From Streptomyces puniciscabiei (GTDB lineage: Bacteria; Actinomycetota; Actinomycetes; Streptomycetales; Streptomycetaceae), in the NCBI RefSeq assembly GCF_006715785.1, contig NZ_VFNX01000001.1, forward strand, positions 2,804,501 through 2,868,500: DNA of 64,000 nt, read 5' to 3'. The notes under the pieces were generated by a model, which worked only from the letters and a program-made list of their open reading frames with translations, was not told where the DNA came from and made no database searches. Positions 1 through 5,630 of this stretch are shown here, in pieces. Position 1 is the stretch's first letter; each line of letters begins with the position of its first letter. The translations under genes and the position numbers were made by a program.

Positions 1-1436
1 GTCTCGAGCATCTCGTGCATCTGACCAGGCTGCACCCGGGTTCCCGCCAGCACCGCCACGACCGCCGCGTGCACTGACGACAGCTTGGGCAACTGGTACC
101 AGTTCTCCCCGTTGCGCTGCCGTTCCGCCCAGGCAGTCAGGTCCTCGCGGGCCGTGCGCCAGCGGGGCTGGAGTCCGCCTTCCCCGGCCTGGCACCCCTC
201 GACAGGCAACAGCACTTCCGCGGCGGCCTTGCCCAGAAGGGGTGGCACCGCGTTGCCGATCTGCCGGAAGGCGTCACTACGTGTCCCAGCGAACCTGAAC
301 CGGTCCGGGAAGGTCTGTACCCGTGCCGCCTCCCGAACGGTCAGGGTGCGGTTCTGGTCCGGATGGATGTACCAGTAGCCGTCCTTGGCGATGTGGGCGG
401 TGATCGACCTGCTCAGGTCGTCCCAGTCAAGCTTCTTGTACTTGTCGGTGAAGTGCTCGGCGCTGTACCGCTGGAGCTCCGGGTCGATGTCCGAGTACAG
501 GGTGTCGGAGTCCATGCTGTCGAAGATCACCCAGTCGTCCGGCCTGACCCTCCGAGTCATGTGGTCGAAGACGACCTCACGCTTCGCGCGCTTGCGCATC
601 TCCCTGGCAAAGTCGGACAGATCTTCGGAGGGGGTGCCGTAGGCCATCTCACGCTCGCCGACACGCTCCGTGGGCACCACGGTGAGGGGAGGGAGGTCAC
701 CAATGGCGTGGCGCAGGGTGGTGCGTTCGTCCTCGGCGACCTCCTGCTGCCACTCGAACCTCTCGATGTCGTTCCTGGCCAGAAGGATGAGCCGCTTCCG
801 GTGCTGGGGTACTCCGTAGCGCCATGCGTCGACAAGGCGTACCTGGGTTGCGTAGCCGAGCTCCTCGAGCTGCTGCTCGATCACGCGGACCACGAAGAAG
901 TCGTCGCCGAGGCCCATGTCCGGGACGTTCTCCATGAGGACGGCGCGCGGCCTGATCCTCTTTATGACGTCCAGGTACGCGCTCCACAGCTCTTTACGGA
1001 GGTCGTGAGGGTCGCGGCCATGGTGCTCTACGAGGTGGCGGATCTTGCTCCGCCCAGCCCTGCTGAACGGCTGGCACGGCGGGCCCCCCGCCACCAGATC
1101 GATCTTCCCCTTCGCCGGCTCCAGCAGCTCCTCGAGCCTGTCACGCTCGGCTGGGTTCCCCAGGTCCATGTGCAGACTCATGCCGGGGAAGTTGGCCGCA
1201 TGGGTCTCAAGGGCACGCTCGTCGAAGTCGACAGCGGCTGCAGTGGTCCAGCCAGCTCGCTGAAGCCCAAGACTCAGACCGCCTGCTCCGGAGAAGAGGT
1301 CCACGGCGAGGCGACGCCCCTTGCCGTACCCTTCGAGCCACTTTGCGAACCGCTCGGGCCTGCAGCTGTGCCGGTGCCGCGGGAGCTTGAGATAGTCGCT
1401 CCGTTCCAGGGGTACGCCATAGTGCGACTCCTGCAC
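1..1436 (-). CDS. DNA (cytosine-5) methyltransferase (Dcm family), C-terminus off the left edge
   Basis: Would methylate cytosine C5 in a specific duplex site using S-adenosylmethionine. Translating the minus strand shows the family motifs in order: DLFSGAGGLSLGLQ (motif I, SAM binding), GGPPCQPFSRAG with the catalytic Cys (IV), ENVPD (VI), PQHRKRL (VIII), RTLTVREAARVQTFP (IX) and IGNAVPPLLG (X). The target-recognition stretch between VIII and IX is about 130 residues. The frame is open without interruption for 478 codons and continues past the window edge, with at least 70 residues after motif X, so a C-terminal extension exists. GTG at 1436 is chosen because GGAGG lies 8 nt upstream; codons upstream remain open, so a longer form is possible. 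It is divergent from the two-ATPase/receiver pair across a 421-nt gap. No restriction endonuclease is visible inside the window; one could lie to the left. It may be an orphan or part of a modification-linked defence locus. Confidence 0.93.
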   Translation of the reverse strand, partial: MQESHYGVPLERSDYLKLPRHRHSCRPERFAKWLEGYGKGRRLAVDLFSGAGGLSLGLQRAGWTTAAAVDFDERALETHAANFPGMSLHMDLGNPAERDRLEELLEPAKGKIDLVAGGPPCQPFSRAGRSKIRHLVEHHGRDPHDLRKELWSAYLDVIKRIRPRAVLMENVPDMGLGDDFFVVRVIEQQLEELGYATQVRLVDAWRYGVPQHRKRLILLARNDIERFEWQQEVAEDERTTLRHAIGDLPPLTVVPTERVGEREMAYGTPSEDLSDFAREMRKRAKREVVFDHMTRRVRPDDWVIFDSMDSDTLYSDIDPELQRYSAEHFTDKYKKLDWDDLSRSITAHIAKDGYWYIHPDQNRTLTVREAARVQTFPDRFRFAGTRSDAFRQIGNAVPPLLGKAAAEVLLPVEGCQAGEGGLQPRWRTAREDLTAWAERQRNGENWYQLPKLSSVHAAVVAVLAGTRVQPGQMHEMLE

Positions 1437-1857
1437 AGCACGCACCTCCACACCAGCGAGAACAACGAGCACCAGGAGATCACAGACGCGCTGGTGGAGG
1501 CAAGGATTCCACCACGCTGACCTCCGGAAATCCCGTGAGACCGATGCTGCGCTCTGCCGGGTACCGGCGCGAGTCCGCGCGGCCCCCCAGTCCTCGGCTT
1601 CGAACCGACGTTCTGGTGCGTTACCAGAGGCAATCGTAGAGGACAGCAGTGACAGCGTCGCTCCCGGGGCCCGGATTGGCCGGACAAGCTGGTCAACGAT
1701 CCGGCGGGGCTGAAGACACGTTCGAGTCGGCCTGAACCTGTGCACGGTTTCGGCCACTTACGAGAGCCGCCCACCTAGCTCGCTGATGGGTAGTTAGTAG
1801 AATCTTGCCCGCCACACACTGCGGAACATGGCTGACAGTTGACGAGCGGGGGCATGG
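1437..1857. other. intergenic region between divergent methyltransferase and GHKL ATPase genes
   Basis: No convincing coding sequence: open frames here are antisense or read-through extensions of the flanking genes. The stretch is visibly richer in A/T near 1780-1815 than its surroundings, as expected for promoters of two divergent genes. I see no clear operator palindrome. Confidence 0.5.
1798..1803 (+). promoter_or_regulatory. candidate -10 element of the GHKL ATPase/receiver operon
   Basis: TAGAAT sits 55 nt before the GTG start at 1858, inside the most A/T-rich part of the gap, giving a predicted start site near 1810 and a leader of about 48 nt that carries a GGGGG Shine-Dalgarno-like run. 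No good TTGACA-like -35 is present at the proper distance, so this is a weak prediction. Confidence 0.3.
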
Positions 1858-4098
1858 GTGGACTCCGAGAACGCGAAGGCGTATCTCCGGCCGCGGGCCA
1901 GGCTCATGAGCACGCTCGGCGAAGAACTGATCAGCAACGAACGCGTCGCCCTCACCGAGCTGGTGAAGAACGCCTACGACGCGGACGCCAGCCTCGTCCT
2001 GATCCGCTTCAACCCTCCCCTCGAAGAGGGTGAGGGCTCGATCGAGGTCTGGGACAACGGGCACGGCATGTCGCCGGCCACAGTGCGCGGCACGTGGATG
2101 GAGATCGCCACCCCGCACAGGCACCGGAACCCACGCAGTGAGTCAGGTGGGCGTCGCGTGCTGGGCGCCAAGGGCATCGGCCGGTTCGCCTCGGCTCGAC
2201 TTGGCCATACCGCCACAATCACGACTCGACGGGTCGATGAGCAGGAGGTCACCCTTCGCATCGACTGGGGGGACTTCACGGATGGTGACGCGTACCTGGA
2301 TGAGGTTCCGGTCTCCCTGTCCACGACCACTCCGAGCGTCTTCGTAGACGGAGGCATAGCAGCGCAGACCTTTTCCGAGGTCCTCCGGGAATTTCAGTCA
2401 GCGCCTGCTACAGCCGTCGGCACGGCGCATGGCACCGTGGTCCGACTCGAGAGGCTTCGCACGGCTTGGGGCACGAACGAGATCGAGGCCCTCAAGCGTT
2501 CCCTGTCCAGGCTCCTCCCCCCGCCGCCTCCCGCCGAGCTCTCTGTGCCGGACCAGCCTGAGTTCTCGATCTACATCGACACTCCGGAGGGGCCGCTCCG
2601 CCACCACAGCGGGTTCGTTTCTGCGAGTGAGACACTGGCCCATCCCCGCTATCGCCTCGTCGGCGCCGTGGATGCCGACGGGGACGCGAGCCTGGCCATT
2701 TACGCCGGCGACGAAGAACCGGTGGAGGTCGTCCAGGACAACCTCCGGAAGGACTCGAAGAGGCCCTCATGTGGCCCTCTGAAACTGGACTTCCGAGTCT
2801 GGGACCTTGAGTCGTCGGCCATCAAGCCGCTCCTGGCACTCGACACCAGCGCGAGGAACACCAACGACGTACGGGAACTCATCCGGAACAACAGCGGTGT
2901 GGCCCTGTACCGGGACGGGTTCCGTGTGCAGCCGTTCGGGGAACCCGGGTTCGACTGGCTTGGTTTCGACCAGCGACGCATCAACAACCCGACGCTGCGT
3001 CTCTCCAACCGGCAAGTGGCGGGATTCGTCTACATCTCGGCCGATGACAACCCCGGCCTCCTGGACCGCTCGCACCGCGAAGGACTGATCGACACCCCTG
3101 AGTACGAGGAACTGAAGGCAGTCATACTCCAGGCGATTGCCAGGTTGGAGACGCAACGCTACCGGCTGCGTCGGGAACCCACTGCTCCGACGGAAGCCCC
3201 GCTCCTTGCCGGGCCGTCCGAAGGCAGGGGCCACGGGCTCTTCCAGAACTTCAACCTGGACCCGCTGCGACAGGTGGCTGCCGAGCGGCACCCAGAGGAC
3301 ATCATCCTCAGTCGCGCCATCGAGGATGCCACGGAGACGATCAACGAAGGCGTACGCAAGGTACAGGAGGTCATCGCCCAGTTCTCCCGCCTCGCGACGC
3401 TGGGCACCCTGGTCGACGTCGTCCTCCACGACGGACGTACCGCCCTTTCCCGCATCGGCGTGGGCCTTCGTCGTCTCGGCAAGATCACCACAAAGGTCGA
3501 GACACACGATGTGGAGTTGTCAGCTGCGCTGGACAAGCTGCGGACGGACTTCACCGCACAAGAAAGGGCTCTCGACCGGCTCTTCACTCGCATCGAGCCC
3601 CTCAGCGGACGGAAGCGTGGACGGCCCCGCCGGCTCTCTCTACACCAGAGCATTTCCGAAGCCGTTGACGTGCTGGAGTCGGAGATCACCAAGCACGGTG
3701 TAGATGTACAGATCAGCGGGGAGGACGTGATCGTCACCGCCGAGCCGGGTGACATCAGGACCCTTGTGGTCAACCTCGTGAGCAACGCCGTGTACTGGCT
3801 CTCCACAATGCCCAAGGGCACTCCCCGCGAGATCCTGATCGAGACGGAGCGCAATCACGAGGGCGAACTGGACGTGGTCGACATCACGGTCAGCGACAAC
3901 GGCCCTGGGGTGCGCGAGAAGATCAAGGACCTGATCTTCGATACCTACTTCAGTGAAAAGCCGGATGGCGTCGGCCTCGGTCTCAGCATCGCAGGCAGCG
4001 TCGTGAAGGACTTCTACGACGGCGAATTGGGGCTGGTGAGCCCCGGCACCCTCTCGGGTGCGAGTTTCCGGGCACGACTGCGAAGGAGAGTTGGGTGA
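1858..4098 (+). CDS. two-GHKL-domain ATPase / histidine-kinase-like protein (paraMORC-like N-terminus)
   Basis: 746 residues with two separate ATP-binding GHKL modules. The N-terminal one is of the HATPase_c_3 (MORC/MutL/Hsp90-like) type: ELVKNAYDADA at residues 34-44 (N box), DNGHGM at 66-71, and GAKGIGRFASARLG near 101-114. The C-terminal one is histidine-kinase type: NLVSNAVYWL near 639, DNGPGV near 680, GLGLSIAGSVV near 705-715. Between them, LATLGTLVDVVLHDGR places H524 where a DHp phospho-acceptor His would be, although the box is not the classic HELR. No membrane segment is visible, so it is probably cytosolic. GTG start at 1858 has GGGGG 8-9 nt upstream. The stop overlaps the next gene, a receiver-domain protein, so the two are co-translated and likely a signalling pair. 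Prokaryotic MORC-type ATPases are known from modification-linked conflict systems (Iyer, Abhiman and Aravind), which fits the adjacent methyltransferase. Base composition is less G/C-rich than core genes in the window, suggesting acquisition. Confidence 0.88.
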   Translation: MDSENAKAYLRPRARLMSTLGEELISNERVALTELVKNAYDADASLVLIRFNPPLEEGEGSIEVWDNGHGMSPATVRGTWMEIATPHRHRNPRSESGGRRVLGAKGIGRFASARLGHTATITTRRVDEQEVTLRIDWGDFTDGDAYLDEVPVSLSTTTPSVFVDGGIAAQTFSEVLREFQSAPATAVGTAHGTVVRLERLRTAWGTNEIEALKRSLSRLLPPPPPAELSVPDQPEFSIYIDTPEGPLRHHSGFVSASETLAHPRYRLVGAVDADGDASLAIYAGDEEPVEVVQDNLRKDSKRPSCGPLKLDFRVWDLESSAIKPLLALDTSARNTNDVRELIRNNSGVALYRDGFRVQPFGEPGFDWLGFDQRRINNPTLRLSNRQVAGFVYISADDNPGLLDRSHREGLIDTPEYEELKAVILQAIARLETQRYRLRREPTAPTEAPLLAGPSEGRGHGLFQNFNLDPLRQVAAERHPEDIILSRAIEDATETINEGVRKVQEVIAQFSRLATLGTLVDVVLHDGRTALSRIGVGLRRLGKITTKVETHDVELSAALDKLRTDFTAQERALDRLFTRIEPLSGRKRGRPRRLSLHQSISEAVDVLESEITKHGVDVQISGEDVIVTAEPGDIRTLVVNLVSNAVYWLSTMPKGTPREILIETERNHEGELDVVDITVSDNGPGVREKIKDLIFDTYFSEKPDGVGLGLSIAGSVVKDFYDGELGLVSPGTLSGASFRARLRRRVG

Positions 4099-5330
4099 CG
4101 TCGACCGACGTTGCGTATCGGGTGCTCATAGTCGATGACGACGCCCAGATGATCGCGGACCTTCGCGAAGTGCTGTCCGAGGAGCTCACAGACCTCGGGG
4201 AGATCCACTTCGAGTCCGAGCAGGACTTCTCCGCAGCCGAGCAGCGATTGATTGACGAGGACTTCGACCTGGTCATCCTCGACGTCCGCGACGCCGCCGA
4301 TGGCATACCCGCCGCTGCCGTCGAAGGACGCGGACACGAACTGTACGACGCCATCGCCGGCGCTCGGTGGCTGCCCGTGGTCTTCTTCACAGCTGTCCCC
4401 CAGCAGGTGCGTGACCTGGAGAAGCCTCCCCTCATCCGTGTGGTGACCAAGAACGCCTGGGACGAGGTCGCTCCCGCAGTCCGGGACGGGTTGCTCTCGG
4501 GAGTGTCGGAGTTGAGACGCCGTATCTCCGATCTCGTCGAACGCAAGGTCCGCGTTTTCCTCCGTGACGTCGTGGCCCCGCACTGGCACGAGATGGCGGG
4601 CGCTGATCCCCACGAGATCACCCCGATCATCGTCAACCGCCTCGCGGCCGAGCTCCGGGAGAACGGCCCCAGCGAACTGGGATACGCCGGGGACGGCGAG
4701 GCGGTCGCCACTGCTGGTCAACCCTCCGCTGCGCGGGTCTACTTGAAGCCGTTCGTGACCCATCACCTCACCGCCACGGACCTCGTGGTCAGCCCCGAGG
4801 GCGATTGGTGGATCGTCCTCACCCCTGCTTGCGACCTGTATGAGGACCACCCGGACGCCAACGTGGCGAGACCTCGTAAGGCCAAGGCACAGTACGTTCG
4901 CCTGGCCAAGGCTGACCGCATCTTCACCGAGGACGGCGAGGAGTCGGAGTCGCCAGCGATCGCCACATGGCTGGCCAGCTCGAAGAGCAACAGCCACAAG
5001 GACCAGGCCAAACAGGTCTTCGGGGACAAGCAGAACCGGTACCGCGCTCTTCCTGGCTACCTCGACATCCCCGACCTCTTGGTCGACTTCGAGAACGTGG
5101 TATCGGTCCCGCTCGCCGAGGCACGAACCTGGCGACGTGTCGCAACCCTCGACAGCCCGTTCTCGGAGGCGATGCTCATCGCCTACAGCCGCTCGGTGGG
5201 GCGTATCGGAACCCCGGACCTCAGCTTCGAGGACGTGAAAGTGCGGTTGGAACTCGAGAAGCCGAAGGCCAGGCACGTGCCGACGCAGGCTTCAACGTCA
5301 TCAGCGAACGGCGAGATTGTGAAGGACTGA
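4095..5330 (+). CDS. receiver-domain response regulator with unknown C-terminal domain
   Basis: 411 residues. The N-terminal 130 residues form a receiver domain: acidic VLIVDDD at 10-16, phospho-acceptor D63 in LVILDVRD, and conserved Lys at about 119 in VVTKNAWDE. No HTH, GGDEF or other familiar output domain follows. Residues 140-411 form a soluble alpha/beta-looking region containing VLTPACDLYED (Cys at about 246) that I cannot place in a family. The GTG start overlaps the upstream stop by 4 nt (GTGA), so it is translationally coupled to the two-ATPase protein, which is presumably its phosphate donor. The C-terminal half could be an effector or a DNA/protein-binding output. Downstream the transcript runs into about 250 nt of noncoding DNA before the tRNA-Pro scar. 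Receiver assignment is firm; the output function is unknown. Confidence 0.85.
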   Translation: MTSTDVAYRVLIVDDDAQMIADLREVLSEELTDLGEIHFESEQDFSAAEQRLIDEDFDLVILDVRDAADGIPAAAVEGRGHELYDAIAGARWLPVVFFTAVPQQVRDLEKPPLIRVVTKNAWDEVAPAVRDGLLSGVSELRRRISDLVERKVRVFLRDVVAPHWHEMAGADPHEITPIIVNRLAAELRENGPSELGYAGDGEAVATAGQPSAARVYLKPFVTHHLTATDLVVSPEGDWWIVLTPACDLYEDHPDANVARPRKAKAQYVRLAKADRIFTEDGEESESPAIATWLASSKSNSHKDQAKQVFGDKQNRYRALPGYLDIPDLLVDFENVVSVPLAEARTWRRVATLDSPFSEAMLIAYSRSVGRIGTPDLSFEDVKVRLELEKPKARHVPTQASTSSANGEIVKD

Positions 5331-5587: not shown

Positions 5588-5630
5588 TTCGGGACGAAGA
5601 GGTCGTGGGTTCAAATCCCGCCACCCCGAC
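5588..5630 (+). other. orphan 3' half of tRNA-Pro(CGG): probable att site (integration scar)
   Basis: Positions 5588-5594 match a 7-nt anticodon loop with anticodon CGG. 5595-5599 would be the 3' strand of the anticodon stem. 5605-5621 is a complete T-arm (GTGGG, TTCAAAT loop, CCCGC). 5622-5628 is the acceptor 3' strand and A5629 the discriminator. The bases before 5588 cannot pair to form the anticodon stem, D-arm or 5' acceptor strand, so this is not a functional tRNA. Site-specific integration into a tRNA 3' end leaves exactly such a duplicate 3' segment at the far junction; pSAM2 of Streptomyces is known to use a tRNA-Pro gene. The orientation implies that the integrated element lies to the left (with the methyltransferase/ATPase/receiver genes) and the original downstream flank to the right. 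The complete tRNA gene should then lie left of the window. Confidence 0.75.

Follow-up and report, generated by a model that had tools for sequence, protein, structure and literature searches.

Detocs is a three-gene kinase/buffer/regulator set. MORC and paraMORC restriction-modification (R-M) systems combine an N-terminal GHKL ATPase with neighbouring cytosine methyltransferases, Vsr, AIPR and superfamily II helicases (PMC2292703). In the HEF_HK (PF19191) and Response_reg_2 (PF19192) pair, a kinase composed of HATPase_c_3, DHp and HATPase_c domains is accompanied by an adjacent response regulator and a nearby C5 methyltransferase and Vsr, an arrangement that PMC8011034 presents as a computational prediction only. 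The putative defence system Type II (PMC9523054; PADLOC mza models) is described in a section that names an unspecified "putative transcriptional regulator", and mzaA is called a sigma factor in the same source. The locus analyzed here, from Streptomyces puniciscabiei, shares a GHKL ATPase, a cytosine methyltransferase and R-M neighbours with the MORC and paraMORC systems and encodes a histidine kinase paired with a response regulator.

Architecture of the kinase–regulator pair

The window is a 64,000-nucleotide stretch (G000:C1:2804501-2868500) of the 9.1-Mb genome. Its ORFs and Pfam matches confirm the layout proposed in the initial annotation, in which a C5-cytosine DNA methyltransferase gene diverges from the gene of a two-GHKL kinase that overlaps a receiver gene by four bases. 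The methyltransferase (PF00145, E 5.9e-58; GGPPCQ and ENV motifs) is encoded on the reverse strand, with its 5' part at positions 1–1757 of the window; the whole ORF of 762 codons runs past window base 1 to G000:C1:2803969. The start at 1757 is probably too far upstream, and the protein probably begins near codon 105 (window position ∼1445), because relatives suggest this position and the relative in genome G561 starts at codon ∼103. The methyltransferases of Streptomycetaceae carry a C-terminal extension of ∼230 residues (codons ∼520–762; window positions 1 to ∼200 and upstream), which ends in a MutY/EndoIII-like C-x6-C-x2-C-x5-C cluster (PDB MutY, E 6.3e-5) and appears by eye to lack the glycosylase catalytic aspartate. 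No MutY-like extension is seen in the aligned methyltransferases from Arthrobacter, Hymenobacter, Campylobacter, Fusobacterium and proteobacteria.

The kinase is a 746-residue fusion of a paraMORC-like GHKL ATPase and a histidine kinase (positions 1858–4098, forward strand). The N-terminal GHKL ATPase (HATPase_c_3, residues 29–141, positions 1942–2280, forward strand; PF13589, 2.1e-21) and the C-terminal kinase ATPase (HATPase_c, residues 631–742, positions 3748–4083, forward strand; PF02518, 7e-22) lie at opposite ends of the chain. Similarity of the first half to MutL and Hsp90 is weak, with a best E value of 0.026. The second half can be aligned to FixL kinase structures, and the predicted phospho-acceptor H524 (codon at 3427–3429, forward strand) falls on the H-box histidine of the FixL chimeras. 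The kinase has 2729 relatives at E≤1e-3. In an alignment of the window kinase with 36 relatives chosen among the 120 matches listed, the residues E34, N38, D66, K105, H524, N639, N643, D680 and G706 are invariant (37/37). Across 25 kinases from many phyla, the N-terminal GHKL motifs, the N box and the G2 box are found in every protein, and the H-box histidine and the G1 box in 24 each; the window kinase has all four histidine-kinase elements (H-box histidine and N, G1 and G2 boxes). The label "MORC-type" given initially to the N-terminal domain is replaced here by paraMORC-like. The S5 motif of MORC proper is given as GhXhhpXXRhl in the description by PMC2292703, and the conserved GVALYRDGFRV sequence at residues 347–357 places the arginine one position late, as judged by eye. 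The N-terminal GHKL domain with intact motifs and the R-M neighbourhood agree with a paraMORC assignment.

The response regulator consists of 411 residues (positions 4095–5330, forward strand). Its 98 relatives were detected at E values of 3e-263 to 2e-6, and 45 of them were aligned with the window regulator. The receiver residues D15, D63 and T/S99 are conserved in 46/46 sequences and K119 in 45/46, which provides the acidic pair, phospho-Asp, Thr/Ser and Lys of a receiver, with PF00072 below threshold (21 of 30.2 bits). D63 (codon at 4281–4283, forward strand) is the predicted phospho-acceptor. The following output domain (residues ∼150–390, positions 4542–5264, forward strand) exhibits the motifs Y..P, TPxCD, LP..IPDLxVD, LDSPFxE and GRxGxPD, and its C246, D247, R370 and G372 residues are found in all 46 regulators. 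The domain has no significant Pfam or PDB-sequence match. A Pfam scan of 16 output domains taken singly gave chance-level matches (two families, each in a single domain, with E values of 0.08 and 0.13) and no nuclease signature, and a PDB profile search was likewise at chance level (two Sm D1 entries at E of about 2). Pfam scans revealed neither an HTH nor a known DNA-binding family, and the weak PADLOC, NCBIfam and PHROGs matches of the regulator all fall on the receiver part. Thus, in the libraries searched, the C-terminal half is not a known transcription output domain, an identity that would have spoken against the initial interpretation. Both genes are under purifying selection, with dN/dS values of 0.07–0.25 in four domain segments and four comparisons.

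A single-sequence search with the window regulator reached Arthrobacter (6e-56), Hymenobacter (8.6e-16), Campylobacter (5.6e-12) and, only at 1.5e-4, Enterobacter, and the Fusobacterium regulator was found by the output-domain profile (87.9 bits). A class-wide search of 345 genomes returned six receiver-only matches besides the window's own regulator, and the Enterobacter pair had no counterpart in the E. coli genomes searched. No regulator match was obtained by tblastn on plasmids or in the viral contigs searched. Six distant kinase loci are present in viral contigs, five of which contain regulator-like ORFs, and none of these ORFs matches the output-domain profile.

Linkage to C5 methyltransferases and defence genes

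The link to defence suggested initially is well supported, mostly by partner genes outside the window, by co-occurrence and by synteny in distant phyla. Beyond the window, the partners of the cassette are Vsr and MzaB-E. The regulator occurs in 7 of 13 genomes with the cassette and in none of the 137 other genomes examined (Fisher p 5.8e-9, uncorrected for relatedness). The other six cassette genomes have no kinase–regulator pair, and the cassette therefore does not need the pair. The two parts also differ in their divergence. Kinase and regulator are 97–98% identical between S. megasporus and the window, compared with 50–67% for MzaB-E; the values are 91–94% and 61–68% for Kitasatospora, whose cassette lies on a separate contig, and 27–41% and 71–79% for G561. 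The pair and the Mza genes thus recombine independently, which makes the pair a separable module and implies no specific protein contact between them.

The S. megasporus locus is split by an assembly break: its methyltransferase and kinase contigs share some 12 bases within the intergenic gap. In Kitasatospora MBT63, no methyltransferase is present in the 2.1 kb that precede the kinase; similarity to the window ends ∼110 bases before the kinase, and the ORF that lies upstream in its place appears HNH-like by eye (L017:1-2128). In G146 and G561, the relay, DISARM-type genes and Mza genes are stacked at one locus (L042-L045) with one C5 methyltransferase by profile. DrmA and DrmB lie between the relay and Mza in G561, and DrmA in G146, where its neighbour resembles the G561 DrmB by eye. 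G031 and G035, which are devoid of the relay, have DrmA/DrmB-like ORFs (by eye) beyond MzaB (L138, L140).

The pair is located just inside the right end of a 51.3-kb integrated element. The attR site (positions 5588–5630, forward strand) is a 43-bp copy of the tRNA-Pro(CGG) 3' end, and the left repeat sits in the intact tRNA-Pro(CGG) gene. The 33-bp core of the tRNA 3' end has exactly two copies in the genome; the repeat reaches 43 bp, and its copies are 51,316 bp apart. A tRNA end just past the regulator is also found in CB03234/G006, G051, Y2F8-2, CC208A, S. milbemycinicus and S. megasporus/G043, and it was not found in the remaining loci examined. At the left end of the island (L086:4419-6524, L086:6771-8300), a 701-residue N6 methylase/specificity fusion adjoins a tyrosine integrase with a LacI-type HTH match in the middle of the protein. 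The cargo includes class I (W/Y-type) and class II (D/K/N-type) aminoacyl-tRNA synthetase genes and an aminotransferase gene (L087:11391-12452, L004:6422-8074, L087:12449-14617).

Linkage was assessed in 20 loci with CD-type regulators, namely those of 14 Streptomycetaceae genomes, Arthrobacter, Hymenobacter NBH84, two Campylobacter (2 of the 41 records that matched the kinase), Fusobacterium and Enterobacter; some profiles used on the distant loci were trained on a few of the same loci. Allorhizobium (27.8 bits), Ardenticatenia (30.9 bits) and Rothia (kinase, with the regulator not found) were excluded from this set. A C5 methyltransferase is linked in 18/20 loci from four phyla. In 17 loci, methyltransferase and pair share a contig, at a distance of 16–18 kb in G146 and G561, and the 18th locus is that of S. 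megasporus, across the contig break. The two loci not counted as linked are those of Kitasatospora MBT63 and Enterobacter mori, whose pair has no nearby C5 methyltransferase and only a weak match ∼34 kb away. The partner cassette changes between loci while the C5 methyltransferase stays. In Campylobacter (L048, L059) and Fusobacterium (L057), kinase, regulator and C5 methyltransferase form three-gene units, and neither Mza nor Vsr profiles matched the locus DNA examined. The methyltransferase of C. jejuni is followed by an AAA ATPase gene, so the three-gene unit may be incomplete alone.

More distant relatives were counted separately. Regulators of 452 residues from five loci (Burkholderia, two Agrobacterium and two Rhizobium; B. 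glumae is 1 of 3 records) are accompanied by a C5 methyltransferase and Vsr in all cases. Their output domain has ACD and RPG motifs in common with the window domain but an hhalign P of only 0.07, and it is doubtful that the two are the same domain; the cases with EcoRII-N/helicase partners carry such a doubtfully related regulator. Among eight further plasmid relatives, six have an annotated methyltransferase that adjoins the kinase or lies less than ∼2 kb from the pair, one of them annotated only as a generic SAM-dependent enzyme, and two have no methyltransferase there. The homologous pairs examined thus mostly have methyltransferases, contrary to the distribution that would have undermined the initial proposal. 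Plasmid cassettes of Burkholderia, Hymenobacter and Deinococcus consist of a DNA methyltransferase, a two-GHKL kinase, a short regulator (215–228 residues) and an MBL hydrolase or HNH protein (L062:8613-13782, L063:8610-13744, L068:8541-13508), and their methyltransferases are annotated as type I M, N-6 or Eco57I-type. In Rothia nasimurium (L021:7383-9323), where no regulator was detected, a methyltransferase lies beside a kinase relative whose alignment extends only to residue 615.

Possible roles of the relay

The two-GHKL kinase, the overlapping regulator gene, the near-constant C5 methyltransferase and the changing restriction partners point to a phosphorelay that serves methylation-linked defence. 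We give a probability of roughly one half to the reading that the pair is an optional two-component phosphorelay of a C5-methyltransferase-centred defence cassette (C5 methyltransferase, Vsr and MzaB-E) in a tRNA-Pro-integrated island. Both ATPase sites, both predicted phospho-acceptors, the gene overlap and the cassette linkage are supported at the sequence level. The invariant residues, the co-occurrence, the linkage in 18/20 loci, the varying partners and the purifying selection count for this reading. The cassette genomes without the pair, the E. mori and Kitasatospora MBT63 loci and the independent recombination of pair and Mza count against it.

In the proposed mechanism, the N-terminal paraMORC-like GHKL clamp would be the input and would respond to a methylation- or infection-linked state of DNA or nucleoprotein. 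The clamp would gate autophosphorylation of H524, and the phosphate would then move to D63, a transfer that the conserved phospho-acceptors support. The output domain would either target protein partners or serve as an effector, which is likelier than action as a classical transcription factor, and may license or restrain the restriction arm. The initial interpretation is partly supported: its defence link stands, its phosphotransfer step is a prediction from the conserved acceptor residues, and DNA or nucleotide sensing by the first GHKL domain and an effect of the output domain are proposals.

Most response regulators are transcription factors. The phosphorylated regulator could accordingly bind DNA and set expression of the methyltransferase, Mza or both, like the controller proteins of R-M systems. 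Methyltransferase and kinase have a divergent promoter region in common, and the gap between them contains a 32-bp element, CAACGA-N12-GAAGRCACRTTCGA (positions 1694–1725, forward strand), in which 18/32 columns are invariant in seven aligned loci, some of them 80–98% identical in that region (0/5000 column permutations). However, the element is also found upstream of three of six methyltransferases without a kinase (G067 and G071 in full, G031 with two mismatches in the left half), and it was not found in the G035, G066, G095, G146 and G561 loci, although G146 and G561 have the pair. The element therefore goes with the methyltransferase and provides no evidence for an operator of the regulator, a function that we reject for it. 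The Pfam scans of the output domain gave no HTH or known DNA-binding family either, and transcriptional control appears rather unlikely.

Given the three-gene units and an output domain in which no DNA-binding fold was recognized, the regulator may itself be the effector. Kinase and regulator would then form the restricting arm, and the methyltransferase would mark self. The separate MBL hydrolase or HNH protein that follows the short regulators and the partial match of the N-terminal GHKL domain to the BbrUII/HgiDII restriction-enzyme model are in line with this proposal. However, the output domain shows no nuclease signature, the restriction-enzyme model covers a fraction of the kinase, Streptomyces already has a nuclease-bearing cassette, and the C. 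jejuni unit may need its AAA ATPase. Restriction by the relay itself is unlikelier still. The separability of the pair, the tendency of islands to gather cargo, the unlinked Enterobacter pair and the separate Kitasatospora contig would suit a two-component system that is unrelated to the defence genes and found in their islands by chance, but its absence from all 137 cassette-less genomes examined and the C5 methyltransferase linkage in 18/20 loci across four phyla make such a passenger improbable.

If the phosphorelay controls methylation-linked defence, bacteria would use phosphosignalling to decide when to restrict. Two usually separate fields would be joined, and the signal sensed by bacterial MORC-like clamps would become easier to approach. 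The optional, swappable pair offers natural with/without comparisons. The output domain is kept in at least four phyla without an assignment in the libraries searched, and one structure would annotate many proteins.

Comparison with known systems

The window methyltransferase also matches the DrmMII profiles of DISARM, but no DrmA or DrmB was found among the window cassette genes scanned with PADLOC, and the locus is not assigned to DISARM. The N-terminal GHKL domain resembles BbrUII/HgiDII (NF050001) over residues 17–218 only, with 75 bits against a cut-off of 550, and in the window protein a kinase replaces the rest of the chain. The Type II defence section of PMC9523054 names no histidine kinase or response regulator, unlike the locus described here. 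Compared with the MORC/paraMORC R-M systems as described in PMC2292703, the GHKL ATPase of the window forms one protein with a histidine kinase and has a regulator as its partner.

The HEF_HK and Response_reg_2 pair is likewise among the closest known systems. At E≤1, PF19191 and PF19192 match neither the window pair nor five plasmid pairs, and PF19192 matched 0/296 genomes of the phylum and 0/14 controls in a search that had no positive control. The statement in the initial annotation that no experimental description of this combination was known agrees with the open-access literature searched, but a computational account of a sister arrangement, the HEF_HK pair, exists in PMC8011034. The combination is therefore less unprecedented than first noted, and the window reproduces the architecture of that pair, with a two-GHKL kinase, an adjacent regulator and a C5 methyltransferase.
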